From assembly GCA_003222395.1 (NCBI GenBank), contig QHWB01000067.1, positions 1 through 54,985 on the forward strand: a stretch of 54,985 nt of DNA. The letters are read 5' to 3'. How positions within the stretch are numbered: position 1 is the first letter of the stretch; the number at the start of each line of letters is the position of its first letter. This stretch comes from Acidobacteriota bacterium. Its GTDB lineage: Bacteria; Acidobacteriota; Vicinamibacteria; Vicinamibacterales; CAVVIG01. Below, in pieces: positions 15,240 to 50,846 of this stretch. The notes under the pieces were generated by a model. The model made no database searches and was not told the origin of the DNA. It saw nothing but the letters and a program-made list of their open reading frames with translations. The translations under genes were made by a program, and so were the position numbers.

Positions 15240-16739
<1,500 letters not shown>

Positions 16740-18032: not shown

Positions 18033-18210
18033 TGAGGACACAGAGTTACTTGACGACACAGAGGAAATTAGCCACAGAGACACGGATGTACAGAGACGCC
18101 GATCGGCGTTTACCTTCTGCGTGCTCTGCGCTCCATCGTCTCTGGGTCTCTGTGTCTCTGTGGTTGATCGTCTCTGTGTTCTCCGTACACTCCGTGTCGT
18201 ACGTGTCGTA
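18033..18210. repeat. CACAGAG/CTCTGTG inverted repeat between exporter genes
   Basis: The left half holds several CACAGAG units (for example GCCACAGAGACACGG) and the right half the inverse (GTCTCTGTGTCTCTGTGG, GTCTCTGTGTTC). The block fills the 184 bp between the permease and ATPase genes and could form a long imperfect hairpin. It contains open reading frames in several frames that are not gene-like, including an artificial N-terminal extension of the ATPase gene. Confidence 0.75.
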
Positions 18211-18216
18211 CTCCCG

Positions 18217-30499: not shown

Positions 30500-31726
30500 G
30501 TGAGAAATAAATTCGTGTGCGCCGCCGTTTTCTCGGCTGCGGCGGCCCTCTCTGCGCCTGCGTCGGCCCAGTCGATCCCGGACGAAGCGGAGGCGCCGCC
30601 GACGTATCGGGTGCGCATCGGGCCGATCGCGATGAATCCGCGCATCCAGCTCGCGAACCTCGGCGTCGACGACAACGTGTTCAACGAGCCGACGGATCAG
30701 AATCCGAAGAAGGACTTCACGCTCACCATCACGCCGTCGACCGACATGTGGATGCGCATGGGGCCGTCGCGGCTGCTGCTCAACGTCAAGGAAGACCTCG
30801 TCTGGTTTCGGAAGTACGACAGCGAGCGATCGGCCAACAGCAGCTACAACCTCGACTGGCTGCTGCCGCTCAACCGGCTGCGGGTGGACCTGAGCCCGAA
30901 GTTCCTCACCACGCGCGATCGGCCCGGCTACGAGATCGACGCGCGGTCGCAGCGCAGGCAGTACGGCGGCGTGGGGACGATCGAGCTCCGCGCGTTTCCG
31001 CGCACGTTCATCGGCGTCACCGGCTCGACCGAGCGCGTCGACTTCGACAGCGTCGCCGTCTTCGACGGCGTGAACCTGCGCGAGGCGTTGAATCGCACCG
31101 TTCAGGCCGGCGGCGTCGCGGTCCGCCATCAGCTGACGCCGCTGACGACGATCGGCGTTTCGGCGACCCGAGAGCAGTCGCGGTTCGAGTTCTCGCCGCT
31201 CCGCGACTCCGACTCGACGTCGATCTTCGCCAGCGTGACGTTCGATCCGTTCGCGCTCATCAAGGGCAGCGCCAAAGTCGGCTACCGGAATTTTCACCCG
31301 CTCTCGCCGGGCCTTCCCGATTTCACCGGGCTGACGGCGAGCGGCGACCTCTCGTACACGCTCCTCGGCGCCACGCGCTTCGGCGTCAATTTCACGCGCG
31401 ACGTGCAGTACTCGTACGAAATCAACCAGCCCTACTATCTGCAGACCGGCGCGGGCGGCTCGATCACGCAGCAGATCTTCGGTCCGTTCGACGTGATGGC
31501 GCGCGGAGGCGCGCAGCGCCTCGCCTATCGCGATCGGGCGGGAGTCTTCGTCGCGACAGAAAACCGCACGGACCACGTCACCACGTTCGGCGGCGGCGTC
31601 GGGTACCACTTCGGCCGCGATGTACGGTGGGGCCTGAACGTCGATCAATACCATCGCACGTCCGATCTGACGGCAAGGCAGTACGACGCGCTCCGGTATG
31701 GAACTTCGGTGACCTATGGATTCTGA
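30500..31726 (+). CDS. Outer-membrane beta-barrel protein of the exopolysaccharide locus
   Basis: The 408-residue protein has a signal peptide (MRNKFVCAAVFSAAAALSAP, then ASAQ). The mature part is made of alternating amphipathic strands and ends with an aromatic residue (GTSVTYGF), the outer-membrane assembly signal. It resembles putative beta-barrel porin 2/EpsL-type proteins coded beside Wza in exopolysaccharide loci, which may provide an exit channel or scaffold. The start is a GTG with a GAAGG-type binding site. It is the first gene of the locus and nearly touches wza. Confidence 0.78.
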   Translation: MRNKFVCAAVFSAAAALSAPASAQSIPDEAEAPPTYRVRIGPIAMNPRIQLANLGVDDNVFNEPTDQNPKKDFTLTITPSTDMWMRMGPSRLLLNVKEDLVWFRKYDSERSANSSYNLDWLLPLNRLRVDLSPKFLTTRDRPGYEIDARSQRRQYGGVGTIELRAFPRTFIGVTGSTERVDFDSVAVFDGVNLREALNRTVQAGGVAVRHQLTPLTTIGVSATREQSRFEFSPLRDSDSTSIFASVTFDPFALIKGSAKVGYRNFHPLSPGLPDFTGLTASGDLSYTLLGATRFGVNFTRDVQYSYEINQPYYLQTGAGGSITQQIFGPFDVMARGGAQRLAYRDRAGVFVATENRTDHVTTFGGGVGYHFGRDVRWGLNVDQYHRTSDLTARQYDALRYGTSVTYGF

Positions 31727-31730
31727 GCTG

Positions 31731-32606
31731 ATGACATCTCGCACACGCAGCCTTCTCGCGGCGTCGTTCGTCGCGGCGCTGTTCTCCGTGGCCGCCGCGG
31801 CACAGGGCGGCGCTCAGACGCGTCCCTCCGGTCCGGCCGCCGACTACATCGTCGGCGCCCAGGATGTGCTGACGATTACCTGCTACGACCAGGCCGATCT
31901 GTCCGGCAAGTTCACCGTCGAGACCGACGGGACGTTCTCGTATCCGCTGATCGGCCGGGTGAAAGTTGGCGGCCTGACGCTGCGTCAGGTCGAGAGCGAA
32001 GTGAAGACGCGCCTGGTCGGCGACGGGTACTTCAGGAAGCCGCAGATCACCGTGTCGGTCGACACCTACAAGAGCCAGAAGGTGTTCGTCGTCGGCGAAG
32101 TGCGGACGCCGGGCACCTACGCGTTGTCGGGCGACATGAACCTCGTCGAGGCGCTCGCGCGCGCCGGGTCGACGCTGCCGACCGCGAGCGGCGAGGCGAT
32201 CGTCGTGCACCCGGAGGCGGGGCAGACGCCGTCGGGGCCGACGCTTCCGACCGCTGTGATCAATGACAGCGAAGACAACGTTGTCCGCGTCGATCTGCGC
32301 GACCTCCAGAACGGCGCCTTCTCGCAGAACGCGATGCTGCGCGACGGCGACACCATTTTCGTTCCGCGCGCGGAGAGCGTGTACGTGTTCGGCCACGTGA
32401 AGAACCCCGGCGCCTACGCGATGCAGCAGAGGAACACGACCGTGCTGCAGGCGCTGTCGCTCGCCGGCGGCGTGACCGATCGCGGCACGACGAGCCGCAT
32501 CAAGATCGTCCGCATCGTCAACGGTGAAAAGCGGGAAGTCAAAGTGAAACTGACCGACCTCGTGCTGTCAGGCGATACGGTCATGGTGGCGGAGAGATTC
32601 TTCTGA
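31731..32606 (+). CDS. Polysaccharide export protein (Wza-like, SLBB domains)
   Basis: The 291-residue protein has an export signal (TRSLLAASFVAALFSVAAAA), the Poly_export domain (DYIVGAQDVLTITCYDQADL, GKFTVETDGTFSYPLIGRVK) and two SLBB-type beta-grasp domains (VFVVGEVRTPGTYALSG and VYVFGHVKNPGAYAMQ). It forms the periplasmic/outer-membrane export channel for polysaccharide. ATG 31731 gives the best signal peptide. ATG 31716, overlapping the previous gene, would add five residues. Unlike E. coli Wza no lipobox is seen. Its stop overlaps the kinase start. Confidence 0.92.
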   Translation: MTSRTRSLLAASFVAALFSVAAAAQGGAQTRPSGPAADYIVGAQDVLTITCYDQADLSGKFTVETDGTFSYPLIGRVKVGGLTLRQVESEVKTRLVGDGYFRKPQITVSVDTYKSQKVFVVGEVRTPGTYALSGDMNLVEALARAGSTLPTASGEAIVVHPEAGQTPSGPTLPTAVINDSEDNVVRVDLRDLQNGAFSQNAMLRDGDTIFVPRAESVYVFGHVKNPGAYAMQQRNTTVLQALSLAGGVTDRGTTSRIKIVRIVNGEKREVKVKLTDLVLSGDTVMVAERFF

Positions 32607-34927
32607 TGTCTGAACAGTTTTCGTCCAATCCCGGCCCGGCCGCTGCCGGCCGCCTCGAGATGGCGCCAGGCCTCGACAGCATCGACGCCGGCGCGGCGCC
32701 GCCGATATCGGCCGCCGCGCCGAACGGCCGCGGCCCGGCGTACGGCTACGGCAGCAACGTGATCGGCGACGGCGAGGTGCACCTGCTCGATTACGTGAAG
32801 GTGCTCTACAAGCGGCGCTGGACGGCGATCACCGCCTTCCTCGTCGTGTTCCTCAGCGTGACGATCTACACCTTCACGGCGACGCCGATCTACGAAGCGA
32901 AGGTGCAGATCCTGATCGAGAAGGAGAACACGAACGTCGTCACGTTCAAGGAAGCGTTCGAGCAGAACCAGATCGCGGACGACTATTACCAGACGCAGTA
33001 CAAGATTCTCCAGAGCCGCGCGCTCGCGCGGCGGACGATTGACGGGCTCAAGCTGTGGGAGCACCCGCTCCTGAAGCCCAACGACGATAACCTGACCGTG
33101 GGGAAGATCGCCGCCGCGCCGGCCGCCTTCGTCTCGTCGTGGTTCAGGACGGCGGCGCCGGTGGGGATGCCGGGAAGCGACGAGTCGAAGCAGCAGTCGC
33201 GCGTCATCGACCGGTTCCTCAAGGACCTCACGGTCTCGCCAATCCGGAACAGCCGGCTCGTCGACGTGAAGTTCGAGTCGCCGAGCGCGGCGCTGTCGGC
33301 GCAGGTGGCGAACGGGCTCGCGAAGGCGTACATCGAGCAGAACCTCGAGTTCAAGTTCATGTCGTCGAAGGAAGCGTCGGACTGGCTAGGCGAGCGGCTG
33401 AGCGAACAGCGCAAACAAGTTGAAGCGAGCGAGCAGGCCTTGCAGCGCTACCGCGAGCAGACCGACTCCGTCTCGCTCGAAGACAAGCAGAACATCGTCG
33501 TGCAGAAGCTGGCGGATTTGAACGCGGCGGTGACGCGGGCGAAGACCGAACGCATCCAGAAGGAGGCGGCGCACAACCAGCTTCGCGGGCTGCAGCACGA
33601 TCGCAACGCGCTCGACACCTTCCCGGCCATCCTCTCGAACACGTTCATCCAGCAGCAGAAGGGGGAGATCGCCGAGCTGCAGCGGCAGCAGGCGCAGCTC
33701 TCCGAGAAGCTGGGGCCGCGCCACCCGGACATGCTGAAGGTCTCGAACGCGATCCAGCTCGCGGAGAGCAAGCTGCAGGGGGAGATCGCGAAAGTCGTCC
33801 AGTCGGTCAAGAACGAATATCAGGCGGCGCTCATCCAGGAGCAGACGCTGACCGGCGCGCTCGATCAGCAGAAGCGCGACGCGCTGGCGCTGAGCCGCAA
33901 GGGGATCGACTACGGGGCGCTGCAGCGCGACAACGCGACCAACCGGCAGGTCTTCGAGAGCCTGCTGCAGCGCGCGAAGGAAACGGGCGTCAGCACCGAG
34001 CTGAAGACCAGCAACATCCGCGTCGTGGATGCCGCCGAGGTCCCGCGCAGGCCGGCGAGTCCCAACGTGCCGACGAATCTGCTGCTGGCGTTCTTCGGCG
34101 GCGGGACGCTCGCGCTCGGGCTCGCCTTCTTCTTCGAGTACCTCGACAACCGGATCAAGACGCCGGACGAAGTGAAGGCGCACCTCGGGCTGCCGTTCCT
34201 CGGCATGGTGCCGGCGCTCTTCGGCGACGACGTGAAGGATCCGCTGATGAACAACGGCGTGCCTGCGAACTTTGCGGAAGCGTTCCGCGCCATTCGCACG
34301 AACGTCCTGTTCTCTTCGGCGGAAGAGGGCTCGAAAACCATCGTGATCACGAGCACCGCGCCGGGCGAAGGCAAGACGACCGTCGCGTCGAACATCGGCA
34401 TCGCGCTCGCGCAGGCCAGCCAGCGCGTGCTCATCGTCGACGCCGACATGCGCAAGCCGCGCGTGCACAGCGTGTTCGGCCAGACGCAGGAGCCCGGTCT
34501 GTCAAACGTGCTCGTCGGCAACGCCAAAGCCAGCGAAGCCATCCGCGGTACTGCCGTGTCCGGTCTGTGGACGATGACCGCCGGCATGCTGCCGCCGAAC
34601 CCGTCCGAGCTGCTCGGGTCGAAGCGGTTCAAGGACTTCATCAGCACGCTCGGGCAGCACTTCGACTGGGTGATCATCGACACGCCGCCGGTGATGGCGG
34701 TGACCGACTCTTGCATCGCCGCGCACCGCACGCACGGGACGATCTTCGTCGTCGGGGCGGAGATGACGAGTCGTTTCGCCACCAGGCGCGCCGTCGAACA
34801 ATTGCGGCAGGCAAAATGTGATGTCATTGGCGCGATTCTGAATCGCGTTGACCTGAAGCATCACGGCTACTACTACTCGCAGTACTACCGCAAGCAGTAC
34901 GGCGAGTACTATAGCCGCACCGCGTAA
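32606..34927 (+). CDS. Wzc-type bacterial tyrosine kinase/chain-length determinant
   Basis: The 773-residue protein has a cytoplasmic N-terminus, a Wzz domain with the first membrane segment (ITAFLVVFLSVTIYTF, about 75-90) and a long periplasmic coiled coil (about 270-440). A second membrane segment follows (LLLAFFGGGTLALGLAFFF, about 490-510). The cytoplasmic BY-kinase domain has Walker A TAPGEGKTT (about 580), Walker A' VLIVDADMRKPR and Walker B WVIIDTPPV. The last 22 residues hold eight tyrosines, the autophosphorylation cluster. It controls polymerisation and export with Wza. Kinase and co-polymerase are fused in one chain, as in Proteobacteria. Confidence 0.95.
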   Translation: MSEQFSSNPGPAAAGRLEMAPGLDSIDAGAAPPISAAAPNGRGPAYGYGSNVIGDGEVHLLDYVKVLYKRRWTAITAFLVVFLSVTIYTFTATPIYEAKVQILIEKENTNVVTFKEAFEQNQIADDYYQTQYKILQSRALARRTIDGLKLWEHPLLKPNDDNLTVGKIAAAPAAFVSSWFRTAAPVGMPGSDESKQQSRVIDRFLKDLTVSPIRNSRLVDVKFESPSAALSAQVANGLAKAYIEQNLEFKFMSSKEASDWLGERLSEQRKQVEASEQALQRYREQTDSVSLEDKQNIVVQKLADLNAAVTRAKTERIQKEAAHNQLRGLQHDRNALDTFPAILSNTFIQQQKGEIAELQRQQAQLSEKLGPRHPDMLKVSNAIQLAESKLQGEIAKVVQSVKNEYQAALIQEQTLTGALDQQKRDALALSRKGIDYGALQRDNATNRQVFESLLQRAKETGVSTELKTSNIRVVDAAEVPRRPASPNVPTNLLLAFFGGGTLALGLAFFFEYLDNRIKTPDEVKAHLGLPFLGMVPALFGDDVKDPLMNNGVPANFAEAFRAIRTNVLFSSAEEGSKTIVITSTAPGEGKTTVASNIGIALAQASQRVLIVDADMRKPRVHSVFGQTQEPGLSNVLVGNAKASEAIRGTAVSGLWTMTAGMLPPNPSELLGSKRFKDFISTLGQHFDWVIIDTPPVMAVTDSCIAAHRTHGTIFVVGAEMTSRFATRRAVEQLRQAKCDVIGAILNRVDLKHHGYYYSQYYRKQYGEYYSRTA

Positions 34928-34963
34928 CTCTTCATCCCACAGTTACAACCAAGGCGTTTGCAG

Positions 34964-35854
34964 ATGGCCGACATCAGCTCCTTCGCTCCCCGGCGCGGCA
35001 TGGCCCGTAGCGTAGGTTCGTTTCTCATACGCGCGGCAGCACAAACGCTCGGCCGCAATCGCGTCGTGCGCGCTGCACGGTTCTTCGCAAACGAAGCGCG
35101 GCTCGACTGTCCGAACTTCGCATCACTGAACGGCGAACTCGCGTTGCAGGAAGACTTTCTACAGACGTGGACGGGCGACTCGCCGGTTGTCGCGTTCGAC
35201 GTCGGCGCGAATCTGGGCACGTGGACGACTGCGTTCGCGCAGCAGGCGCGCAGCCGCAACTTGCCGGTCCTCATTCATGCCTTCGAGCCCGCGCCCGACA
35301 CGTTCGCGGCATTGAGTCAAAACCTCGCAGCCGCGCAACTCGATCGTGAGGTCATTGCGAATCGTCTCGCGCTTTCCAACGCGCCCGGTCAGTCAATGCT
35401 GCATTCTCCGGGCTCTCTCGCAGGCCGCGCGAGCCTGTACGAACTGCGACGAGAAGACTCGGAACGACAGATACACGTTCCAGTCGAAAAGGAGACCGTC
35501 AATTGGTACTGCGAACGTGCAAGGGTTCAACGCGTCGATTTCCTGAAGATCGATGCCGAAGGGCACGACTGCTTCGTCATCGCCGGCGCGATCGAGAAAT
35601 GCCGTCGTCACGAGATTGCGTTGATCCAGTTCGAGTATAACCACCGCTGGATCGAGGCACGGCAGTACCTCCGCGACGCGTTCGATCTATTGTTGCCGCT
35701 CGGATACGTCCTCGCGAAGATAACGCCGCTCGGTCTTGAGGTGTACGGACGCTGGCATCACGAGCTCGAATCGTTCCGCGAGGCAAACTTTGTCGCGGTG
35801 CTGCCCGACGTATTGCCGCGCCTTCGAACAATTCCGAATTGGCTCGACGCGTAA
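34964..35854 (+). CDS. FkbM family SAM-dependent methyltransferase
   Basis: The 296-residue protein has the FkbM motifs VVAFDVGANLGTWTTAFAQQ (SAM-binding loop), HAFEPAPDTFAALSQNL and VDFLKIDAEGHDCFVIAGA. Members O-methylate sugars or other hydroxyls in polysaccharide and natural-product pathways, and the substrate here is unknown. ATG 34964 is preferred over TTG 34958. It is the first of two FkbM genes in the locus and ends 1 bp before the next gene. Confidence 0.88.
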   Translation: MADISSFAPRRGMARSVGSFLIRAAAQTLGRNRVVRAARFFANEARLDCPNFASLNGELALQEDFLQTWTGDSPVVAFDVGANLGTWTTAFAQQARSRNLPVLIHAFEPAPDTFAALSQNLAAAQLDREVIANRLALSNAPGQSMLHSPGSLAGRASLYELRREDSERQIHVPVEKETVNWYCERARVQRVDFLKIDAEGHDCFVIAGAIEKCRRHEIALIQFEYNHRWIEARQYLRDAFDLLLPLGYVLAKITPLGLEVYGRWHHELESFREANFVAVLPDVLPRLRTIPNWLDA

Positions 35855-35855
35855 T

Positions 35856-38800
35856 ATGTGCGGAATTGCTGGCGTCCTGTCGGTTGAGCGTCCCGTCACA
35901 GCGGACATGGTCGCCGCCGTGCTGCGAATGCTCGACACACAGGTGCATCGGGGCCCGAACGACTGGGGGATTCTCATTCCCGAGGAGGCACGGAACGATT
36001 TGGCCATTCGTGCCCTTCTCGAGCCGCGCGGGTGGGAGCACGTGCGCCTTTATCCGGGCCCATCCGCGGCGCCTGCAGCCGTTTTGGGATCGCGGCGTCT
36101 ATCGATTCTCGATCTTTCCGCCGCTGGTCGAATGCCGATGATGAGCCACGACGGTCGCGTCGCCGTAACCTATAACGGAGAGATTTATAACTTCAAGGAA
36201 CTGCGCGTCGACCTGTTGCGCCTCGGCCACACGTTTCATTCGAATAGCGATACGGAAGTCCTCCTCCACGGCTACCAGCAGTGGGGCGAAGGTCTGCCGA
36301 CACATCTGCGCGGAATGTTTGCATTCGCAGTGCTCGACGCGCGCCGTGATCATGATCCGAAGCTGTTCCTTGCGAAAGATCGCTTCGGGATCAAGCCGCT
36401 CTACTGGGCTCGACACGACTGCACCTTCCAGTTCGCTTCCGAGGTCCGCGCGCTAATATCGGGTCGACTGATACCGAATGAACCGGAACCGCGCGGCCTG
36501 CACGGCTTCCTGATGTCCGGATCGGTGCCAACGCCTTGGACGACAGTGCGTGGCGTGCTGTCGTTGTCGGCAGCGGAATTCCTCAACGTCGATCAGCGCA
36601 GCTATTCGTTTCCGAAACCGTCGCGTTATTGGGCGCCGCCCCCGGTCGAATCGGTTCGCGAAGTGGCGGATGCGCCGGAGCGCACGAGGCAACTGCTGGC
36701 GTCCGCAGTGAAGGAGCAGTTGGTCAGCGACGTTCCCACCGGCGTCTTTTTATCTGGCGGGATGGATTCGTCGGCAATCGTTGCGCTGGCCGCGCAGGAA
36801 CTGGATCGGCCGCTGACCACATTGTGCGTCACGTTCGACGAGACGGAGTTCAGTGAGAGAGCATACGCGAAAATTGTCGCCGATCGATTCCGCACGAACC
36901 ATGTCGAAGTCCGGGTTCGTAGGCAGGACTTCATAGAGGAGTTGCCCCGGTTTTTCGACTCGCTGGACCAGCCGACGGCCGACGGCGTGAACAGCTACTT
37001 TGTGGCGAAAGCCGCTCGTGCCGCTGGATTAACAGTTGTGCTGTCCGGTCTTGGCGGCGACGAATTGTTCTGGGGCTACCCGGGGTTCCGTTCGTACGGC
37101 CGACTTCGCTCCGCCGCGCGTATGCCGCTGGTGCGTCCTGCGATTGGATTTGTGGGCGCTGTCCTTCAGAACTTCGGACTCAAGAGGTTGGAGAAGCTTG
37201 AGTTTCTGGCAGAGCATCCATTGCTCGGTCCGTACTTGACGATTCGGGGGTTCTTCCCGCCGCGACGTGCCGCGTCGTTACTGGACAGCGGGCAATTGCC
37301 AATCTGGCAGCCGGATTTGCTGCCCGGGGGATCGGACGGCATGCAGTACGGTCGGCTCGAGCTCGACTGTTACATGCAGAATCAGCTGCTGCGCGACACT
37401 GACGTGTTCGCGATGCGCCACAGTGTTGAAGTGCGCGTGCCGTTCTTGGATCATCGACTGGCCGAATTTCTTCTTCGACTGCCCGCATCGACGCTTCGCG
37501 ATGGCACCGGCACAAAGCCGCTTCTCGCGAAAGCGCTTCGATCGGACTATCCAACGGAAATTCTGAACAGACAGAAGATGGGGTTCACGTTTCCGTTTGG
37601 TAAATGGATCCGTGATGCGTGGTCGGAGATCTACTCAGACGGATGTCCCGCAGCGTCGGTAGTTTCGAACGCTGCTTTCGATCAAGTGACCTCTGACTAT
37701 CGTCGCGAACGGCTCCACTGGTCACGCGCGTGGGCACTGTTGGTGCTGCGGGCGGCCGAGAGTCGCGGCCTGGTGCCTGTACTCCCAAATGTGCCTGCTC
37801 TGAGACGGATACTGTTCGTGCTTCCACAAGTTTACGGATCGATCGGCGGCATTCCCGCCTACAACCAGGGTTTGCTCCGCGCCGTATCCGAAGCGCTGCC
37901 GCGCACGGAATTGCACGTGGTGAGTCTAAATGATGGTCCGATTGAGGCATCGGCCGCGCTCAGAGGTCGCGTCCACTTCACCGGCGTTGGTCCGCGCTCG
38001 AAGCGCGTCTACAGGCCGCGCATGCTCGTCAGCGCGCTTCGCGCCGGGTTGCGCGCACGCCCAGATTTGATCGTCACAGGTCACATCAACATTGTTCCGT
38101 TCACCGAGCTGCTTGCGGTCATTACCGGCACGCCAAACATGATGGTCGCGCACGGGATTGAGGCATGGGCGCCGCCCCGTCGCCTGCAGCGCGTTGCCCA
38201 AGGTGTTACGAAGGTACTCGCGGTGAGTCGGTATACGGCCGACCGCCTGAAAGCGTGGGGCATCGCGGACGATCGAATCACTGTGCTTCCAAACATGGTT
38301 GACGGCGAGGTGTTTCGGCCGATTCGTCACGATCGCACATCGAGCGATGTGACCGTCCTCACTGTTGCTCGTTTGGATGCGACCGAACGTTACAAGGGCG
38401 TCGAACAAGTGATGAATGCACTCCACAACGTGGCACCCGAAAAGTCGATTAGATATGTTGTCGCCGGCACCGGCGACGACCTGCCTCGACTGCGGGAAGT
38501 GGCGATGACCAGCGGCCTCGGAAACCGCGTCGAGTTTCGCGGATTCGTACCCGCCATCGATTTGCCGTCGCTCTACAGCGGCGCGGATGTATTCGTGATG
38601 CCCTCCAAGAAAGAAGGATTCGGCATCGTTTTCCTCGAGGCGCTGGCATGTGGAACACCGGTGGTCGGTGGCGATCAGGACGGTTCCATTGACGCGTTGA
38701 TGAACGGGAAATGGGGCCGTCTGGTTGATCCGGATAGCACAGACGACATTCTCGCGGCGATTCTTGATAACGCGCTGCCACGCCCCGACCGCAAAGCATT

Positions 38801-38867
38801 GCTCGACGCGTACGGACCACAGCGCTTTCGATCGAAAGTGCACGAGGTTCTGACGTCCGCGATTTAG
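35856..38867 (+). CDS. Fusion of glutamine-dependent asparagine synthetase-like enzyme and GT4 glycosyltransferase
   Basis: From ATG 35856 the 1003-residue protein begins MCGIAGVLS, with the nucleophilic Cys2 of class II glutamine amidotransferases. HRGPND and YNGEIYNF follow, then the synthetase domain (ATP pyrophosphatase loop FLSGGMDSSA, about 305; LSGLGGDELFWGYPG, about 395). Near residue 648 a second enzyme begins (RILFVLPQVYGSIGGIPAYN). It is a GT-B glycosyltransferase with VARLDATERYKG and the E-x7-E motif KEGFGIVFLEALACGTPVV. One frame runs through with no internal stop, and no internal start with a binding site is obvious. Lone AsnB-like enzymes amidate sugar acids in capsules, so the fusion could couple amidation and glycosyl transfer. 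That coupling is inference. Confidence 0.9.
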   Translation: MCGIAGVLSVERPVTADMVAAVLRMLDTQVHRGPNDWGILIPEEARNDLAIRALLEPRGWEHVRLYPGPSAAPAAVLGSRRLSILDLSAAGRMPMMSHDGRVAVTYNGEIYNFKELRVDLLRLGHTFHSNSDTEVLLHGYQQWGEGLPTHLRGMFAFAVLDARRDHDPKLFLAKDRFGIKPLYWARHDCTFQFASEVRALISGRLIPNEPEPRGLHGFLMSGSVPTPWTTVRGVLSLSAAEFLNVDQRSYSFPKPSRYWAPPPVESVREVADAPERTRQLLASAVKEQLVSDVPTGVFLSGGMDSSAIVALAAQELDRPLTTLCVTFDETEFSERAYAKIVADRFRTNHVEVRVRRQDFIEELPRFFDSLDQPTADGVNSYFVAKAARAAGLTVVLSGLGGDELFWGYPGFRSYGRLRSAARMPLVRPAIGFVGAVLQNFGLKRLEKLEFLAEHPLLGPYLTIRGFFPPRRAASLLDSGQLPIWQPDLLPGGSDGMQYGRLELDCYMQNQLLRDTDVFAMRHSVEVRVPFLDHRLAEFLLRLPASTLRDGTGTKPLLAKALRSDYPTEILNRQKMGFTFPFGKWIRDAWSEIYSDGCPAASVVSNAAFDQVTSDYRRERLHWSRAWALLVLRAAESRGLVPVLPNVPALRRILFVLPQVYGSIGGIPAYNQGLLRAVSEALPRTELHVVSLNDGPIEASAALRGRVHFTGVGPRSKRVYRPRMLVSALRAGLRARPDLIVTGHINIVPFTELLAVITGTPNMMVAHGIEAWAPPRRLQRVAQGVTKVLAVSRYTADRLKAWGIADDRITVLPNMVDGEVFRPIRHDRTSSDVTVLTVARLDATERYKGVEQVMNALHNVAPEKSIRYVVAGTGDDLPRLREVAMTSGLGNRVEFRGFVPAIDLPSLYSGADVFVMPSKKEGFGIVFLEALACGTPVVGGDQDGSIDALMNGKWGRLVDPDSTDDILAAILDNALPRPDRKALLDAYGPQRFRSKVHEVLTSAI

Positions 38868-38875
38868 ATCGACAG

Positions 38876-40162
38876 ATGCAGTCTCGGTCTGTTGCACACG
38901 CTCTTAGCTGGTCCGCGTTCGCGCAAATCGGCGGCGCGGTCGCGCTCATCGTCGGCACACGGCTACTCACGACGTTCGTGTCGCCGGCAGTATTCGGCGT
39001 TGTGGCACTCACAACCGGCGCGTCCACGCTGATGTCGTCGACGTTCTGTTTACCGATCCTTCACGTCGCGGGCCGCTTGTATCCGGAGCGAGAACTCGCC
39101 GGCCGCGGATGTGTCATTCGTCGCGCAACTACCCAACTTATCCTCGCGGCGAGCGTTTTTCCGGCATTCATCGTTCTCGTCCTCGGTAGTGCGTACGCTG
39201 CGCAGGGGCGCACCTCGCTGATGACGGTTATAGCCGTCGCGTTCCTAGTCATCGTCGAAATGCAGCGTGCCACCGCGCAGACGATGCTCGCTGCCGCTAG
39301 ACTCCAGCGGGAGCAGGCGCTCTGGGCATTCGTGGAGCAGGTACTCAGGCCGTTGCTCGCTGTGGCCGTCGTGCTGTTGTTCGGTGACCAAAGCTGGCTT
39401 GTGGTTGCAGCATTCGCGCTGGCCACGGCCGTTGCGTTTGTCGGTTCACGGTTCGCACACGCCGACACCGCGGAAACTTCGTCGGCGGAGCTGGCGGCCG
39501 AGCGCCGACGGCTCGTGCGTTATGCGGCGCCGTTGCTGCCGCAGGCGCTGTCAGCATGGGTTACCGGCACAGGCGATCGTTACCTACTGGCCTGGTGGCA
39601 TGGCACCGAGGCCGCCGGAATGTACGCAGCTGTGTACGGGGTCGTGAGCCGTCCGTTTATCATGCTCGGCACGATCGGCATCAACGCGTTTCGTCCAGCG
39701 TACTTTCAGCAGGTCAGCGCAAACGATAGCCATGCGGCGCGGCGAACGCTGGCGATGTGGATTGGCACACAGCTCGCCATATCGACGCTTGGATTACTGC
39801 TACTCATCACCTTTCAGAACCAGTTGCTGCCGCTGGCGCTGGCCCCACATTACGCGCCGGGTTTCTCGTTGACGCCGTGGATCGCGAGCGGATATGTGCT
39901 GCTGACCCTCGGTCAAGTGTTTCAAATCGTTTCGCTTGCGACGTACCGCACCTGGGGTGTTACGGCAGCGGAGAGCGTTGGTGCCGCTGCCAGTCTCGTC
40001 GTCGGTATTCCATTGATCATGGCGGCGGGCATTCGCGGCGCCGCATGGGCTGTGCCCGCGTATTTCGGAGCACAACTGATTTGCTCGGTCGTCATTGCGT
40101 CGAGAACACCGAAGACGCAGAGCACCGTCGAGTTCGACGCCCTGCCTGTCCTTACGACGTGA
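38876..40162 (+). CDS. Wzx-like oligosaccharide flippase
   Basis: The 428-residue polytopic protein has about 12 hydrophobic segments, an N-terminal HALSWSAFAQIGGAVALIVG segment and the polysaccharide synthase pattern GDRYLLAWWHGTEAAGMYAA. It belongs to the MOP/Wzx superfamily, which flips lipid-linked repeat units to the periplasm for Wzy. It begins 9 bp after the fusion gene. Together with the polymerase downstream it shows that assembly is Wzx/Wzy-type. Confidence 0.88.
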   Translation: MQSRSVAHALSWSAFAQIGGAVALIVGTRLLTTFVSPAVFGVVALTTGASTLMSSTFCLPILHVAGRLYPERELAGRGCVIRRATTQLILAASVFPAFIVLVLGSAYAAQGRTSLMTVIAVAFLVIVEMQRATAQTMLAAARLQREQALWAFVEQVLRPLLAVAVVLLFGDQSWLVVAAFALATAVAFVGSRFAHADTAETSSAELAAERRRLVRYAAPLLPQALSAWVTGTGDRYLLAWWHGTEAAGMYAAVYGVVSRPFIMLGTIGINAFRPAYFQQVSANDSHAARRTLAMWIGTQLAISTLGLLLLITFQNQLLPLALAPHYAPGFSLTPWIASGYVLLTLGQVFQIVSLATYRTWGVTAAESVGAAASLVVGIPLIMAAGIRGAAWAVPAYFGAQLICSVVIASRTPKTQSTVEFDALPVLTT

Positions 40163-40175
40163 TCGAGGAGCTTCA

Positions 40176-41021
40176 ATGAGTACCGCAATCCTCGAAAGGC
40201 TCGCAACGATCACGCGGCGGACGGGGCCACGGGGCATTCATCGCGTCCTTCGATGGATCTGTTCGCCCAAGCGCGCTGACGGGCACTTTACGGGTACGAC
40301 TGCCTACCGCGATGGCCTGCGCATGTGCGTTGACACTCGCGATCACATCGAGTGGCATCTGTTCTTCTACGGAGAATACGAAGGCGATGTCGGTCGCGTC
40401 CTGAAGATGATCACATCGAGTCAGCAGGTAGTGATTGATGTTGGTGCGAACGTCGGCGTCTACACATTGCCGTTGTCTCGTCACGCAGCCCAAGTATTGG
40501 CGGTTGAGCCGAACCCGCGCGTCGCAGAGAGGCTGGATCGGAATCTTCGGCTGAATAACATCGATAACGTGACGGTTGTCAGGTGCGCTCTCTCGAACGA
40601 TGTCGGTGAGTCCAAATTGTTCGTCCCCTGTGAGGCCGTGCACAACTGCGGCATGTCGAGCTTGCACGGTCACTCGCAGCATGGCGGCTCGATTCGAGTC
40701 GATCGCCGCCGGCTCGACGACGTGGTCCGGGCAGAATGCCTGCGGCGAGTTGACTTCATCAAGATTGACACTGAGGGTCATGAGTTCGGAGTTCTGCTCG
40801 GCGCCGAGGGGACGCTGAGAATGCATCTTCCCACACTTCTCTTCGAGTTCGATCCGGATCTGTGGACGAACGGACGTTTTGAATACGACGAATGCGCGCG
40901 ATGGCTCACGTCGATCGGATATGTGATGCCACCGAAACCCGACCGCGCGACGAATGTCCTTGCCGTGCCTTCCACCGATCAACGACGGCACCAATCGTCG
41001 CTAACTGAGACCGCTGAGTGA
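40176..41021 (+). CDS. FkbM family SAM-dependent methyltransferase (second copy)
   Basis: From ATG 40176, preceded by GAGGAG, the 281-residue protein has VVIDVGANVGVYTLPLSRHA, VLAVEPNPRVAERLDRNLRL and VDFIKIDTEGHEFGVLLGAE. It is distinct from the first FkbM gene and not a recent duplicate. It probably methylates another hydroxyl of the repeat unit. Its stop overlaps the next gene's GTG as GTGA. Confidence 0.88.
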   Translation: MSTAILERLATITRRTGPRGIHRVLRWICSPKRADGHFTGTTAYRDGLRMCVDTRDHIEWHLFFYGEYEGDVGRVLKMITSSQQVVIDVGANVGVYTLPLSRHAAQVLAVEPNPRVAERLDRNLRLNNIDNVTVVRCALSNDVGESKLFVPCEAVHNCGMSSLHGHSQHGGSIRVDRRRLDDVVRAECLRRVDFIKIDTEGHEFGVLLGAEGTLRMHLPTLLFEFDPDLWTNGRFEYDECARWLTSIGYVMPPKPDRATNVLAVPSTDQRRHQSSLTETAE

Positions 41022-42019: not shown

Positions 42020-43471
42020 GTGAATACGGTGCAGACGCCACGTGGCGCCCGTCCCGCTCTGCTGTTGTGTGGGGCGATGAGCGGACTGGCGGTGCTGTCG
42101 TTTTTGACGGCACCGTTGCCTGCCGAGCGCATGGACGTGTGGTCGGCGATCGTGGCAGCGTCCATCGCTGTGTGTTGCGGTGCGTATGCGGTCTTCGTCG
42201 TTCGGCAGAACCGACTGGCAGCTTGGTCTCCACTCTTTTGGTTCATCAGTGCCTATGCTTTGTACTTCGGGATCGGACCGCTGCTGCGAACCTTTGGCAA
42301 CGGGGCGTCCGTCGACTACATCGACAGGACATTTCTCTTGCACTCCGACGGTTGGCGCCGCGCCAACCTGCTCAACTGTGTGGCACTGGCGATTACGTGC
42401 CTGATCTATCAATTCGTGACCGGAATGCCTTCGACCGCTTCACGCGTAACCGGCACATCAAAAACGCGCGTGCTGACCTTCCTCGTGCTGGTCGGAGTGC
42501 CGATCAAATACTGTCTCGTTGCGCCCGCGACGCTGGGCTTAGTGACGACAATCGTTCCCGGTGTGTGGCGGACGCTCGCGATGCTCGTTCCTGGTGCCGT
42601 TGCGCTCGGGTGGCAGATCATCGCGGAAGGCAATCGACGGCTTGTCTTTCCGATAGTGCTTCTTACAGGCGCGGAGCTGTGGCTTGGGTGGACGAGTCTA
42701 GCGAAGGTGGAACTGCTTATAACCATCATTGCAATCAGCCTCGGTCTCTATACAGGACGGCGGTCCCTCAGGCCGCTTGTGTTCATGGCGGCGGCAACCG
42801 GCCTCATCGTCTTCGTCCTCACTGACGCGGTCCTCATCACGCGCGACCAACAGAGCAAGACGGACTTGTCGCTGAATCAGCGCGCCGCGGCCTTCGCCGA
42901 CAACCTCCGTACCAGCATGAGTCAGCAGGATAACAGCGGGCAGCCGCAGATGTGGTGGATTCGTCTCAGCTACGTGGGCGCGCAGGCGTTTGCGATGCAG
43001 CAGTACGACATGGGCCGTCCTGGCGATACGTTCGGCTTGGCGTTGTACGCGTTCGTCCCCCGGTTTATCTGGCCGGAGAAGCCAACCGTGACCGTCGGCG
43101 ATTTGTTCAACGAGCTGCTGACCGGCATGTCGACCAGCAGGAGTACGCCCGGAGCATTTGCCGAAGCGTACTGGAATGGCGGCTGGTTCCTTGTAATCGG
43201 TGCGGCAATGTATTTGGGTCTGCTTCTGGCATTGCTGGAGCGCTGGAACATGACCAGTGTAGCGACCGGGGATGCGACATGGATTCCAAGCGCATTGATA
43301 GTGATTATCGCAGGCGCGAGTCCTGATAACTGGTTCGTGGCGACATTCGTTGGAACGATCCCGCTGATCTTCCTTCCTTGGATCGTGATGAAGTGCCTCG
43401 AGCATGTGTCGCGCATCGTGTCGACTGCACTGGGAAAACCGCAGGGCGGGAGTTGGGCGACACATGTCTGA
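42020..43471 (+). CDS. Wzy-like oligosaccharide repeat-unit polymerase
   Basis: The 483-residue protein has ten or more hydrophobic segments. Examples are SGLAVLSFLTAPLP, LFWFISAYALYFGIGPLL and LVFMAAATGLIVFVLTDAVL. A large hydrophilic loop around residues 275-370 contains YAFVPRFIWPEKPTV. This resembles O-antigen polymerases of the oligosaccharide repeat-unit polymerase type. Wzy proteins link flipped repeat units in the periplasm. Assignment is by topology and context, because the sequences are poorly conserved. The start is a GTG, and the 3' end overlaps the next gene by 8 bp. Confidence 0.72.
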   Translation: MNTVQTPRGARPALLLCGAMSGLAVLSFLTAPLPAERMDVWSAIVAASIAVCCGAYAVFVVRQNRLAAWSPLFWFISAYALYFGIGPLLRTFGNGASVDYIDRTFLLHSDGWRRANLLNCVALAITCLIYQFVTGMPSTASRVTGTSKTRVLTFLVLVGVPIKYCLVAPATLGLVTTIVPGVWRTLAMLVPGAVALGWQIIAEGNRRLVFPIVLLTGAELWLGWTSLAKVELLITIIAISLGLYTGRRSLRPLVFMAAATGLIVFVLTDAVLITRDQQSKTDLSLNQRAAAFADNLRTSMSQQDNSGQPQMWWIRLSYVGAQAFAMQQYDMGRPGDTFGLALYAFVPRFIWPEKPTVTVGDLFNELLTGMSTSRSTPGAFAEAYWNGGWFLVIGAAMYLGLLLALLERWNMTSVATGDATWIPSALIVIIAGASPDNWFVATFVGTIPLIFLPWIVMKCLEHVSRIVSTALGKPQGGSWATHV

Positions 43472-44618
43472 GCCTCGACATGCCGTACTCACGGTGGCGT
43501 GCACTGGTTCCAATCTCGGTGGTCCATCGCGAACGGTTCCGAAGCTCGCCGAGGAGTTGGCAAAGATGGGCACGGCCGTAACGTTGGTCACTCTCGACCT
43601 TGGCAAACGCGTAGGCCACCCGATCGCGCCCGGCCCACCTGTAACGACCGTGTTTGCTTCAGGGCTGTATTGGCCGCGCGCGCGCGTAGTCTGGTCGCCC
43701 GGATTCGCGAGAACACTGCGCGACGTTTGCAACGTATCGAAACCTCATGTCCTCCATGACAACGGCCTCTGGATGCAGTCGAATCGGGATGCGGCGAGTG
43801 TGGCGCGTGAGCTTGCGATTCCGCTAGTGCTCAGTCCGCGAGGGATGCTCAGTGCGTGGGCGCTCAAGTACAAGTCGGTGAAGAAACGCTTGGCATGGGT
43901 TCTGTATCAGCGGCGGTGCCTGTCGATCGTATCGGCGTTCCACGCGACATCGGCCGCAGAAGCGGCAGACATACGAGCATGTGGCCTCGAGCAGCCGATC
44001 GCTGTGATTCCAAACGCCGTGGCGCTACCGCCCCTTTGGACCGGACAGCGGACGAAAACGATTCTGTTCATGTCACGTCTCAACCCAAACAAAGGGGCAT
44101 TGGAACTCGTTGATGCGTGGGCACGCGCGCGCGTCGTCGGCTGGAAGCTCCTCGTCGTCGGCCCCGATGAAAACGGATACGCAAATCGACTGCGTGAGTC
44201 CGTGATCAAACAAGGGCTGTCGAACGACGTGGTCATTCGAGACGCCGTCGGCGACATCGAGAAATGGGACTTGTACGGCGCTGCGTCAGTATTCATATTG
44301 CCGAGTCATTCTGAGAACTTTGGCGTTGTAATCGCCGAAGCGCTTGCCAGCGGAACGCCGGTGATCACGACCGATGCCACTCCGTGGAGAGCCGTCGAAT
44401 CCGAAGGCTGCGGCTGGTGTGTTGCGCCAACGGTAAGCGCGCTCGCGCTAGCAATGGAAAGTGCGATGACGACGGATCCGGTGACGTTAGCCGCGATGGG
44501 CACGCTTGGTAGAAAGCTCATCGAGAGGGAATTCGTCTGGGAACGCGTGGGCCAGCAGATGTCGGAACTTTATGCATGGCTAACTAAGGGGGGCCGCCCG
44601 CCGGCATTCGTATGCTGA
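43464..44618 (+). CDS. GT4 family glycosyltransferase
   Basis: From ATG 43464 the 384-residue protein has the GT-B pattern GGPSRTVPKLAEELAKMG (acceptor domain), HDNGLWMQSN, SPRGMLSAWALKYK, FMSRLNPNKGALELVDAW and the C-terminal SENFGVVIAEALASGTPVIT (E-x7-E). The SPRGML motif is common in glycosyltransferases of capsule loci. It adds a sugar to the lipid-linked repeat unit; donor unknown. It overlaps both neighbours by a few bases. Confidence 0.9.
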   Translation: MSEPRHAVLTVACTGSNLGGPSRTVPKLAEELAKMGTAVTLVTLDLGKRVGHPIAPGPPVTTVFASGLYWPRARVVWSPGFARTLRDVCNVSKPHVLHDNGLWMQSNRDAASVARELAIPLVLSPRGMLSAWALKYKSVKKRLAWVLYQRRCLSIVSAFHATSAAEAADIRACGLEQPIAVIPNAVALPPLWTGQRTKTILFMSRLNPNKGALELVDAWARARVVGWKLLVVGPDENGYANRLRESVIKQGLSNDVVIRDAVGDIEKWDLYGAASVFILPSHSENFGVVIAEALASGTPVITTDATPWRAVESEGCGWCVAPTVSALALAMESAMTTDPVTLAAMGTLGRKLIEREFVWERVGQQMSELYAWLTKGGRPPAFVC

Positions 44619-45526
44619 CGATCGAAACAGACAAACGTGAATGTCCGATTTGCGGCGGCAATGCTGTCCGTGCAACGGAGCATTATCCGGCGGCCTATTG
44701 GCGTTGCGAGGCTTGCGGAACATCACACTTGTTTCCACAACCAAGCGGCGCGGAGCTCGACGACTTCTACGAACAGTACCACGCGGGCACGTCCGAAAAT
44801 GTGGGGTTCGCACGGTTCGAGGCGCGCACAGCGCAGGACTTTCCGACGAAGGCCAGTCTCGTGCAGCAGATGCTCGCTGGGTCACGGGCGCCGCATAACT
44901 GCAATTGGCGCGTTCTCGACGTTGGCTGTGGCAAAGGCGTGTTCGTCCGCGAGCTCCAACGCCTTGGCATCGACGCGGAAGGCATCGACGTCTCTACGGA
45001 GGCGATTCAAGCGGGCGCTGCGGCCGGAGTGACCAGTTTACGAAGCGGTCACGTTGAGACGCAGTCGGAATGGCACGGCCGCTTTGACGCGGTGACGATG
45101 TTTGCCACCATCGAGCACTCGCCGGATCCACTGGCGCTTGTCCGCGCGGCTCACTATGTGTTGAAGCCAGGCGGTCTCTTGTTTCTGGATACCGGCGTGT
45201 GCGACGACTTCGCTGCACGCTGGGTACCGGGCCTCATTCAGTGGTATCACCCGCCGGAGCACCTGTTCGTCTTCAGCACGCACGGTCTTCGACATTTGAT
45301 GACGCGCGCTGGGTTCGCTGTCGCTGCGCTCGATCCAAACTTCGAGCGGAATCCGTGGCGAGCCGCGGCAAAGCGGCTGCGCAACGGAGTCGCCGCCCTT
45401 GCCGGCTACGCGGCGATCACGACGCTTTTCGGCAGCGACGTATACGAGCGCATGCGGCGTGAAACCAAGCTGCCGCTGGGCGCGCTGGCATTCGTCATCG
45501 CTCGATCCGGTGGCGATCTCGCGTGA
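44612..45526 (+). CDS. Zinc-ribbon class I SAM-dependent methyltransferase
   Basis: The 304-residue protein starts with a Cys4 zinc ribbon (CPICGG and CEACGT, residues 11-36), followed by a Rossmann methyltransferase with VLDVGCGKGVFVRELQ, GIDVSTEAI, EHSPDPLALVRAAHYVLKPG and a helical end. Proteins of this layout act on sugars or lipid-linked glycans in polysaccharide loci. The substrate is not predictable here. It overlaps the previous gene by 7 bp and the next by 4 bp. Confidence 0.85.
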   Translation: MLTIETDKRECPICGGNAVRATEHYPAAYWRCEACGTSHLFPQPSGAELDDFYEQYHAGTSENVGFARFEARTAQDFPTKASLVQQMLAGSRAPHNCNWRVLDVGCGKGVFVRELQRLGIDAEGIDVSTEAIQAGAAAGVTSLRSGHVETQSEWHGRFDAVTMFATIEHSPDPLALVRAAHYVLKPGGLLFLDTGVCDDFAARWVPGLIQWYHPPEHLFVFSTHGLRHLMTRAGFAVAALDPNFERNPWRAAAKRLRNGVAALAGYAAITTLFGSDVYERMRRETKLPLGALAFVIARSGGDLA

Positions 45527-46380
45527 GTGTTTCGGCGCTAATCCTGACGCTCAACGAAGAGGTTAACATCGCGCGGTGCCTCGAATCGCTTCGCTGGTGC
45601 GACGACGTGGTGGTGCTCGATTCGGGTAGTAGCGATCGGACAGTGACGATTGCTGAGGCGTTTGGCGCGCGCGTCGTTCACCGGCCTTTCGACGACTGGT
45701 CGACACATCAGAACTGGGCCGGCCGCAACATTCCGTTCAAACACCGGTGGGTGTACTACTCGGACGCCGACGAGATCGTTCCAGAGGATCTTGCCAGCGA
45801 GCTGATCGGCGCGGCGGCCGACGTGAAGTCGCCAAACGTCGCGTACCGGCTTCGATATAAGAACATTTTTCAGGGTCGCTGGATCGCGCACTGTGGCATC
45901 TACCCGGTCTGGGTGTTGCGGTTCTTTAGGCCCGAACGTGTCAGATGGGAGCGGTCCGTGAACCCGATTGCCGTCGTCGACGGCTCTGAGGGGCGCCTAA
46001 AGTCTCATTTCGAACACCACAGCTTCAGCAAGGGCCTCGAAGCTTGGATCGACAAGCACAATCGCTACTCGTCGCTCGAAGCGCGGGAAGCAGTGGCCGC
46101 GCGCATAGAGGGATGGCCTTCGCTGGCTCGCCTATTCAGTGCGAATCCAACAGTGCGTCGGCAGATACTCAAACACGTTGGTTTCCTGCTGCCATTCAGG
46201 CCGACGCTGCGGTTCGCGTACATGTACCTACTGCGCCGCGGCTTCATGGACGGCGCTCCCGGGTTCACGTATTGCCGCCTTCTTCGCATGTACGAAGCGA
46301 TGATCGACTTCAAGATTCGTGAGTTCGCGTCTGACACTACCAGTAGCACTACACCAGTGGTACATCCGCAGTCGCTGTAA
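45523..46380 (+). CDS. GT2 family glycosyltransferase (WaaE/KdtX-like)
   Basis: The 285-residue protein starts SVSALILTLNEEVNIARCLE, the GT-A nucleotide-binding strand. It has VVVLDSGSSDRTV, the metal-binding acidic motif YYSDADEIVP and the downstream RWERSVNP and HHSFSKGLEAWIDKHNRYS segments found in WaaE-type transferases. It probably adds a hexose to the repeat unit or core. The start is a GTG in a GTGA overlap, and it ends at the base before the next start. Confidence 0.88.
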   Translation: MSVSALILTLNEEVNIARCLESLRWCDDVVVLDSGSSDRTVTIAEAFGARVVHRPFDDWSTHQNWAGRNIPFKHRWVYYSDADEIVPEDLASELIGAAADVKSPNVAYRLRYKNIFQGRWIAHCGIYPVWVLRFFRPERVRWERSVNPIAVVDGSEGRLKSHFEHHSFSKGLEAWIDKHNRYSSLEAREAVAARIEGWPSLARLFSANPTVRRQILKHVGFLLPFRPTLRFAYMYLLRRGFMDGAPGFTYCRLLRMYEAMIDFKIREFASDTTSSTTPVVHPQSL

Positions 46381-50830: not shown

Positions 50831-50846
50831 GAGAGATCAAACGAAT

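Follow-up and report, generated by a model that had tools for sequence, protein, structure and literature searches.

An asparagine synthetase-like amidotransferase fused in frame to a GT4 glycosyltransferase in an acidobacterial polysaccharide locus

The window analysed here, a stretch of 54,985 nucleotides from an Acidobacteriota genome, carries a locus that combines glycosyltransferase genes with genes for polymer export, a setting expected of WbpS-type amidotransferases. Within it lies a single gene that joins an AsnB-like amidotransferase to a GT4 glycosyltransferase. A search for RNA elements between 28000 and 54985 gave none at the gathering threshold. The genes of the locus are as follows:

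30500..31726 (+): EpsL-like outer-membrane protein, matched only weakly (33.5 bits, where the cut-off is 275)
31716..32606 (+): Wza/EpsE-like polysaccharide export protein, below the equivalog cut-off
32606..34927 (+): Wzc-like chain-length protein with a tyrosine autokinase domain
34958..35854 (+): FkbM-family methyltransferase, with a single base between its stop codon and the fusion ATG
35856..38867 (+): AsnB-like amidotransferase/GT4 glycosyltransferase fusion gene, one frame of 1003 amino acids with its stop codon inside the given end
38876..40162 (+): Wzx-like flippase, weak matches only
40095..41021 (+): FkbM-family methyltransferase; the true start is probably downstream
43404..44618 (+): separate GT4 glycosyltransferase, nearest model HpsP, below cut-off
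45523..46380 (+): GT2 glycosyltransferase
46381..47601 (+): GT4-type glycosyltransferase, nearest model WcaI, below cut-off
47505..49466 (+): WecA-type initiating phosphotransferase with an attached CoA_binding_3 domain
49463..50830 (+): Wzy/O-antigen-ligase-like polymerase
50718..51797 (+): GDP-L-fucose-synthase-like sugar-nucleotide enzyme (497.6 bits, just short of the cut-off of 500); the true start is probably downstream

The fusion gene translates without internal stop into a protein that begins with MCGIAG and consists of an AsnB-like half (residues 1 to about 632) and, C-terminal to it, a GT4 half, with the motifs of both enzymes present. The original prediction of one 1003-residue frame holding an AsnB-type enzyme and a GT-B transferase is borne out by the translation, the Pfam domains and the motifs, which are distributed along the gene as follows:

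35856..35861 (+): start methionine and Cys2, within MCGIAG of the translation
35988..36080 (+): extra stretch in the glutaminase domain, about residues 45-75, seen in alignments and also present in the AsnB half of both L162 and L163 (see below)
36093..36458 (+): GATase_7 glutamine amidotransferase domain, residues 80-201 (Pfam)
36684..37742 (+): Asn_synthase domain, residues 277-629 (Pfam)
36753..36773 (+): PPi loop SGGMDSS, residues 300-306, from the translation and a motif scan
37044..37070 (+): SGLGGDELF, residues 397-405, with Leu399 inside, from alignments to solved relatives
37743..37793 (+): linker between the enzymes, about residues 630-646, from alignments
37794..38864 (+): GT4 glycosyltransferase half, about residues 647-1003, from Pfam and motifs

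Cys2 is taken here to become the N-terminal nucleophile once the methionine is removed, as its role in this amidotransferase family. Further motifs of the AsnB half are NGEIYN at residue 107 and SDTEV at 131, and those of the GT half are GGIPAY at 664, HGIEAW at 766 and the E-x7-E motif EGFGIVFLE at 920-928. The GT half contains the domains Glyco_transf_4 (677-816) and Glyco_trans_1_4 (833-970). All four Pfam domains of the fusion exceed their curated cut-offs, PF13439 scoring 49.7 bits (cut-off 28.5) and PF13692 104.6 bits (cut-off 27) in the GT half. In a sequence search of the PDB, the matches to the GT half begin at residue 775 or later, and none covers it in full.

A frameshift or assembly artefact as the origin of the join was considered and ruled out. 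The GC content at the three codon positions shows no shift near 37800, the suspected weak point, and so gives no sign of a frameshift there. A search of other genomes for the same domain order returned in-frame fusions in 10 of them, which makes an assembly error very unlikely; the join is not a sequencing accident. The AsnB and GT motifs are present in all 11 fusions. An internal start that would give two separate proteins has no clear signal in its favour: among the candidate start codons in the linker, the best Shine-Dalgarno pairing belongs to GTG 37791 (-5.1 kcal/mol), which does not stand out from 182 arbitrary internal start codons (median -2.5, best -10.1 kcal/mol); the test is weak, since the ATG of the fusion itself scores only -1.5 kcal/mol.

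The two enzymes are usually encoded by separate genes, as had been supposed. A GT match was obtained in 60 of 61 loci of the GT4 subfamily. Of these 60, 6 carry a fusion and 34 an AsnB gene of its own no more than 2.5 kb away, on either side of the GT gene; the remaining 20 show no AsnB over that distance in the DNA covered. The fused state is the minority in this subfamily, and unfused neighbours are commoner. In a comparison with other GT4 enzymes from the taxonomic order to which the window belongs, an AsnB match within 1.2 kb was found in 38 of 58 scorable subfamily loci (3 of 61 being unscorable) and in 0 of 26 scorable other loci (2 of 28 unscorable). A Fisher test was applied to this comparison, although many of the loci are cyanobacterial and they are not independent, so that its value overstates the association. 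Pairs are seen in several phyla and with either gene first, and the AsnB-GT4 pairing is well supported. Plasmids of Bradyrhizobium, Isosphaeraceae and two haloarchaea likewise have neighbouring genes annotated as AsnB and as a glycosyltransferase, seen in the plasmid regions for the first two and from the annotation under the match for the haloarchaea. As such plasmid records illustrate, AsnB-like genes that lie in polysaccharide loci often go under the name of asparagine synthase. Since the relatives mostly keep two neighbouring genes, the join marks the two enzymes as partners in the making of a surface sugar chain.

The AsnB half passes the model of glutamine-hydrolysing asparagine synthases, TIGR01536 (399.1 against a cut-off of 267.1), and falls far below that of the WbpS type, TIGR03108 (386.5 against 816.9). 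However, in the four displayed alignments, to 7YLZ, 1CT9, 8SUE and 6GQ3 (the last presumably human asparagine synthetase), Leu399 stands opposite the glutamate of SGEG or SGEA, and the glutamate of the SGEGSDE stretch is one that we take to be important in asparagine synthetases. Of 40 partner AsnB proteins, 39 can be read at this position, and each of them has L, V or I there; nearly all of the partners carry SG[L/V/I]G..DE. The replacement speaks against aspartate as the substrate. The genome of the window encodes 11 clear AsnB-like genes (15 matches, of which two are pieces of one gene and three are short and weak), and another of them retains the glutamate (TGEGSDE), so that, judging by the motif, it appears a better candidate for asparagine supply than the fusion. 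Similar AsnB proteins with SG[T/A/L]GGDE exist in relatives without such a glycosyltransferase in the flank examined.

The reading preferred here, tentatively and somewhat short of probable, is that of a two-enzyme exopolysaccharide protein that would amidate a uronic acid of the repeat unit and transfer either that sugar or the next one. The setting would be the cytoplasmic part of an exopolysaccharide pathway. After methionine removal, Cys2 would hydrolyse glutamine, and the ammonia would move to the second active site of the AsnB half, where ATP would activate a carboxylate. The latter would most likely be C6 of a uronic acid that is bound to a nucleotide or forms part of the growing lipid-linked glycan, and would be converted to a uronamide. 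The GT4 half could then transfer the amidated residue or add the next sugar onto it, with the join holding the two steps at equal dosage and close together. Counting against this reading are the low TIGR03108 score, the 20 subfamily loci in which no AsnB was seen within 2.5 kb, and the similar AsnB proteins of relatives that have no such glycosyltransferase in the flank examined. Because the fusion reveals which glycosyltransferase an AsnB-like enzyme partners, the substrate of the AsnB half can be tested with one cloned gene.

A uronic acid as the substrate is plausible, but the evidence for it is indirect and points both ways. The competing explanation, somewhat unlikely but to be taken seriously, is that the carboxylate amidated by the AsnB half is not that of a uronic acid but, for instance, that of an acidic sugar substituent or of a nonulosonic acid, or that the amine joined to it is something other than ammonia, and that the glycosyltransferase uses the product. 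In its favour, the top-scoring solved structure, 7YLZ, is named a hydroxyamidotransferase, and relatives of the fold therefore use other nitrogen donors or acceptors. The presence of a uronic-acid-forming dehydrogenase nearby, another trait of WbpS contexts, is not seen either: there is no NDP-sugar dehydrogenase on the contigs of the window, L162 or L163, nor, in 12 cyanobacterial genomes with the pair, any on the contig of the GT less than 100 kb from it. Conversely, three loci of the GT4 subfamily that have no AsnB show a dehydrogenase 7-10 kb away, and the dehydrogenase thus does not follow the AsnB. Against this explanation, a dehydrogenase adjoins 2 of the 11 fusions, as the next gene after L096 and as the gene before L085, where it is broken into pieces; both pass TIGR03026, and among specific models the UDP-ManNAc dehydrogenases fit best, below cut-off. 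One further fusion has a dehydrogenase 19 kb away, and the idea of such a gene beside every fusion does not hold. Five dehydrogenases over cut-off elsewhere in the genome of the window could supply the substrate, although the finding of one somewhere in all 11 fusion genomes says little, since 13 of 14 control genomes have one too. The non-uronic explanation is also opposed by the glycan-locus homologues studied experimentally, WbpS, WbqG and PGN_1234, which are tied to uronamides in the available portions of PMC7468200 and PMC6025236. As described there, WbpS homologues are needed for a uronamide in P. gingivalis, and loss of the homologue in H. pullorum alters the glycan, which in the mutant stops at a disaccharide.

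The other fusions show how the two halves have been combined. The AsnB halves closest to that of the window (46-47% identity) belong to L162 and L163, fusions from two species of one genus of the same phylum, which share the glutaminase insert and the full-length AsnB C-terminus. They differ in a longer linker, an AGTGADE motif and, for L162, an ABC-transporter locus, and their GT halves belong to another GT4 subgroup, with only 28-31% identity to that of the window (ranks 57-58 of 61). Close AsnB halves with dissimilar GT halves suggest that the GT half was exchanged, or that one AsnB type was fused twice; from these comparisons, the AsnB half may be the constant part of this small group and the GT4 half the exchanged one. 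The other eight fusions (L084, L085, L088, L089, L094, L096, L164 and L165) have the same domain order and motifs as the window fusion, but all eight differ from it in a PPi loop that reads S[A/S]GxDS, and they belong to a separate group of the AsnB tree with unfused pairs interspersed. In six of them the similarity to the AsnB half of the window stops near residue 585-589, as opposed to about 632. Within the open-access literature searched, the text consulted on an Antarctic cyanobacterium, giant viruses and cyanobacterial natural products describes no fusion of this kind, and an open-access search on a hormogonium-polysaccharide lead yielded nothing.

The trees are quick searches without bootstrap, in which the label "fused" was fixed beforehand and the set of window, L162 and L163 was chosen after their AsnB relation had been seen. 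The first GT tree held 59 of 61 rows (two below 300 amino acids excluded) and the first AsnB tree 39 of 41 (two below 450 excluded); the window formed a long branch in them, and its joining with L070 in the GT tree was flagged as unsafe. The later trees and identity ranking, with 37 AsnB and 62 GT rows, excluded 27 locus identifiers (near-copies from cyanobacteria and Paenibacillus, two long branches, and weaker GT loci of the phylum search) as well as L140 and partial AsnB pieces from that search. A single clade of all seven fusions then known was rejected (AsnB p 6e-57, GT p 1.65e-4), as was an AsnB clade of the six without the window (p 0.0079), among which unfused pairs lie. A position of the window GT half next to the 18-row GT group holding the other six was not rejected (p 0.458). 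The fused state is scattered over both trees. Because gains and losses cannot be told apart from the numbers of changes, fusion may have happened repeatedly, or older fusions may have been split repeatedly.

This scatter, together with the strong link to one GT4 subfamily, is not expected from gene dosage alone, and argues against a second competing explanation: that the halves are independent enzymes for different steps of one pathway, kept at equal dosage with no hand-over of a shared intermediate. Such an arrangement is improbable, even though unfused neighbours in both gene orders outnumber the fusions and related AsnB halves carry unrelated GT halves, swaps that a finely fitted channel would hinder. 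The converse proposal, rather unlikely as well, is a modular one in which the AsnB half would hand the amidated sugar or lipid-linked acceptor straight to the attached GT4 half. If true, exchange of the GT would alter which linkage is made or which sugar comes next but leave the amide in place, and a hand-over from amidation of the carboxyl group to glycosyl transfer inside a single chain would possibly have evolved more than once. The window fusion, together with L162 and L163, shows partner exchange, an experiment of nature that bears on which of the halves determines the sugar linkage. Finally, an ordinary asparagine synthetase joined to a glycosyltransferase by chance and without chemical significance is very improbable, since despite the TIGR01536 score it is disfavoured by Leu399, by the recurrence of AsnB beside one GT4 subfamily and in polysaccharide loci, and by the TGEGSDE-bearing AsnB of the same genome.

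Among known systems, asparagine synthetase B (E. coli 1CT9; 6GQ3) shares with the fusion the glutaminase and synthetase domains and the PPi loop, whereas the fusion has leucine for the glutamate of SGEGSDE and an added GT4 domain. If assays agree, SG[L/V/I]GGDE, usually accompanied by DQP[S/T]xDGxN, would be a handle to separate such enzymes from asparagine synthetases. The unfused asnB and GT4 neighbours of cyanobacteria, Verrucomicrobiota, Acidobacteriota and the Bradyrhizobium plasmid comprise the same two enzyme types side by side, but as two genes in either order, with frames that overlap by four bases in Bradyrhizobium. The psc1 locus of Rubrivivax may be a further separate pair, a likeness drawn from gene descriptions and not from sequence subclass: in the available portion of PMC3684757, RGS1_10406-10408 read GT, wbpS, GT, and an insertion in 10407 in the embRS mutant alters growth and colony form. 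WbpS, WbqG and PGN_1234, described in the available part of PMC7468200 as uronamide-forming amidotransferases of the TIGR03108 family, resemble the fusion in their AsnB architecture, in glycan loci with glycosyltransferases, and in an expected chemistry from carboxylate to amide. These enzymes, compared here through the TIGR03108 score and descriptions rather than by direct alignment, are reported as separate genes, whereas the fusion carries its GT4 glycosyltransferase within the same protein.

The gene at 35856-38867 of the forward strand translates into 1003 residues without a stop, and Pfam places the following domains in it, all over the cut-off:

residues 80-201, + strand, glutaminase domain
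residues 277-629, + strand, Asn_synthase domain
residues 677-816 and 833-970, + strand, GT4 glycosyltransferase

The AsnB half holds the starting Met-Cys, NGEIYN, SDTEV and the PPi loop SGGMDSS, and the GT4 half holds E-x7-E as EGFGIVFLE. Translation, Pfam and motifs thus bear out the original prediction of a single AsnB plus GT-B frame with both motif sets, that is, two motif-complete enzymes in one protein. The frame starts one base past the stop of the preceding FkbM methyltransferase gene. Codon-position GC runs evenly across the join and gives no hint of a frameshift, and in-frame fusions with the same domain order occur in 10 other genomes.

Searching named genomes with the GT half turned up 61 loci; on a re-search, the GT match was recovered in 60, and an AsnB was sought within 2.5 kb. 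The two are fused in frame in six of these 60 loci, a separate AsnB lies upstream in nine and downstream in 25, and none was found within 2.5 kb in the DNA examined of the other 20. The two enzymes are therefore usually separate genes, as had been claimed (34/60 versus 6/60). Within the phylum of the window, 31 of 396 genomes have a GT match at 1e-60. The 30 loci examined comprise five fusions (window included), five with AsnB then GT, four with GT then AsnB (one resting on a partial AsnB match 1.3 kb away), and 16 whose flanks, at most about 1.7 kb long, showed no AsnB. In full translation, the four fusions new from this search are unbroken frames of 973-1066 residues, bringing the total to 11 in 11 genomes, window counted. 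All 11 retain the motif sets of the two enzymes, with internal variation, so selection seems to be acting on both halves.

Among loci that could be scored, 38 of 58 from this GT4 subfamily have an AsnB match within 1.2 kb, versus 0 of 26 control loci (other GT4 genes, window's order); because the controls cover a smaller set of taxa and the loci do not count as independent, only the direction of this association is used, not a probability. On plasmids, AsnB and a glycosyltransferase are annotated as two genes in Bradyrhizobium and Isosphaeraceae, where the regions were inspected, and in Halorussus and Natrononativus, by the annotation under the match. The Bradyrhizobium frames share a four-base overlap, with a UDP-glucuronic acid decarboxylase gene ahead of them. 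Pairing and fusion are thus recurrent, and the window fusion is real, recurrent and probably meaningful. The open-access literature, as far as it was seen, yielded no description of an AsnB-GT4 fusion.

In the AsnB tree, the six fusions from the named genomes fall in one strongly supported group, intermixed with unfused pairs; this group does not include the window. Topology tests rejected all seven of these first-known fusions as one AsnB clade and, less strongly, the six as a clade without unfused pairs. The seven were also rejected as one GT-half clade; a constraint making the window GT half the neighbour of the 18-row GT group holding the six stands unrejected. With the new fusions added, the window AsnB half groups with its counterparts in L162 and L163, fusions from two species of one genus (support 98); all three have an insert at about residues 45-75 and a C-terminus of full length. 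The GT halves of these three were rejected as one group (AU p 0.0059). Correspondingly, L162 and L163 come first and second of 36 in BLAST from the window AsnB half; from its GT half they are 57th and 58th of 61. Two histories would account for this, replacement of the GT half within an existing fusion or two separate fusions of one AsnB type; in the other fusion group, repeated splitting of older fusions is possible. All eight fusions of that group (L084, L085, L088, L089, L094, L096, L164 and L165) have S[A/S]GxDS in the PPi loop instead of SGGxDS.

Where 7YLZ, 1CT9, 8SUE and 6GQ3 have the Glu of the SGEG/SGEA stretch in four displayed alignments, the window AsnB has Leu. Of 40 partner AsnBs, the 39 that can be read here carry Leu, Val or Ile (the L085 fusion among the 39), and L162 and L163 carry Thr. 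The window's genome encodes 10 other clear AsnBs, whose six readable motifs have Asp (five) or Glu (one). Three AsnB-like genes of this genome lie on one strand within 9 kb (L118, 5309-13847 on G000 C98), two with SGDGGDE and one with TGEGSDE. The window fusion passes the cut-off of the asparagine synthase model TIGR01536 and fails that of TIGR03108, the WbpS type. Elsewhere in the family there are AsnBs with SG[T/A/L]GGDE that have no such GT in the flanks examined, which shows that the subclass is not limited to GT partners. Asparagine synthesis by the window AsnB half seems unlikely, and the acceptor is probably a carboxylate other than that used in asparagine synthesis. Cys2 would hydrolyse glutamine, a uronic acid would be amidated in an ATP-dependent step, and the GT4 half would transfer the amidated sugar or the next one. 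The original prediction suggested channelling; the joining of related AsnB halves to unrelated GT halves argues against a finely fitted channel, and favours closeness or equal dosage instead.

Uronic acids are products of NDP-sugar dehydrogenases. Such a gene is next 3' of the L096 fusion, precedes the L085 fusion in pieces, and follows the unfused pair L098 by about 2 kb. Those adjoining L096 and L085 pass TIGR03026; among specific models they score best, below the cut-off, with UDP-N-acetylmannosamine dehydrogenases, a hint that the uronic acid is N-acetylated. In the L088 genome the gene lies about 19 kb from the fusion, and none was found on the contigs, some of them short, of the other eight fusions. 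At least one is present in 11/11 fusion genomes versus 13/14 control genomes. In 12 cyanobacterial genomes with the pair, the contig of the GT carries no dehydrogenase within 100 kb of it, and three AsnB-free loci of this GT4, two from Paenibacillus and one from Geobacteraceae, have one at a distance of 7-10 kb; therefore, the dehydrogenase does not track AsnB in the set examined.

The window (G000:C26:1-54985, from a genome of 7.7 Mb in 118 contigs) houses the fusion in an exopolysaccharide locus, several genes of which score under the curated cut-offs of their naming models:

ahead of the fusion, in order: EpsL-like, Wza/EpsE-like, Wzc-like, FkbM methyltransferase
after the fusion, in order: Wzx-like, FkbM, glycosyltransferases, WecA-type initiating enzyme, Wzy, GDP-fucose-synthase-like enzyme

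Within 30500-50830, the three export genes (EpsL-, Wza- and Wzc-like) have a third-position GC of about 0.9, against 0.65-0.82 from the methyltransferase through the polymerase genes (34958 onward); the drop would be consistent with import of the sugar-assembly block, whose origin would then differ from that of the export genes. A second unusual fusion (47505-49466) is a WecA-type initiating phosphotransferase with a CoA_binding_3 region at its C-terminal end; this region matches EPS glycosylphosphotransferase models in their N-terminal part. A 483-residue frame of the locus (42020-43471) matches no Pfam or NCBIfam model at the thresholds applied. At 18007-19542, about 11 kb ahead of the first Wzx/Wzy-like locus gene, lies an ABC transporter ATPase with a Wzt C-terminal domain, and an ATP synthase alpha/beta family gene with a V/A-type C-terminal domain is at 15252-16739. 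A same-family genome also has a fusion (G018:C76), matching in place and score that of G181:C76 (L089).

Whereas the window fusion lies in a Wzx/Wzy-like locus, that of L162 adjoins ABC-transporter genes, with Wzc- and Wzy-like genes also there; the step common to both would be assembly on the cytoplasmic side. Among published systems, in the parts of the sources seen, the uronamide of P. gingivalis requires WbpS homologues (PMC7468200). In the H. pullorum wbpS mutant a disaccharide replaces the pentasaccharide; the Discussion writes this disaccharide as HexNAc-HexNAcA, but the Results have it end in HexNAcAN (PMC6025236). A Rubrivivax gelatinosus polysaccharide locus has the order GT-wbpS-GT, and insertions give phenotypes (PMC3684757); in a tabulated Sphingomonas cluster, a sugar dehydrogenase is found together with an exosortase-associated amidotransferase and GT4 genes (PMC11340318). 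The window gene is of an already known kind, the AsnB-like amidotransferase and GT4 of polysaccharide loci, and the fusion is a variant of it.
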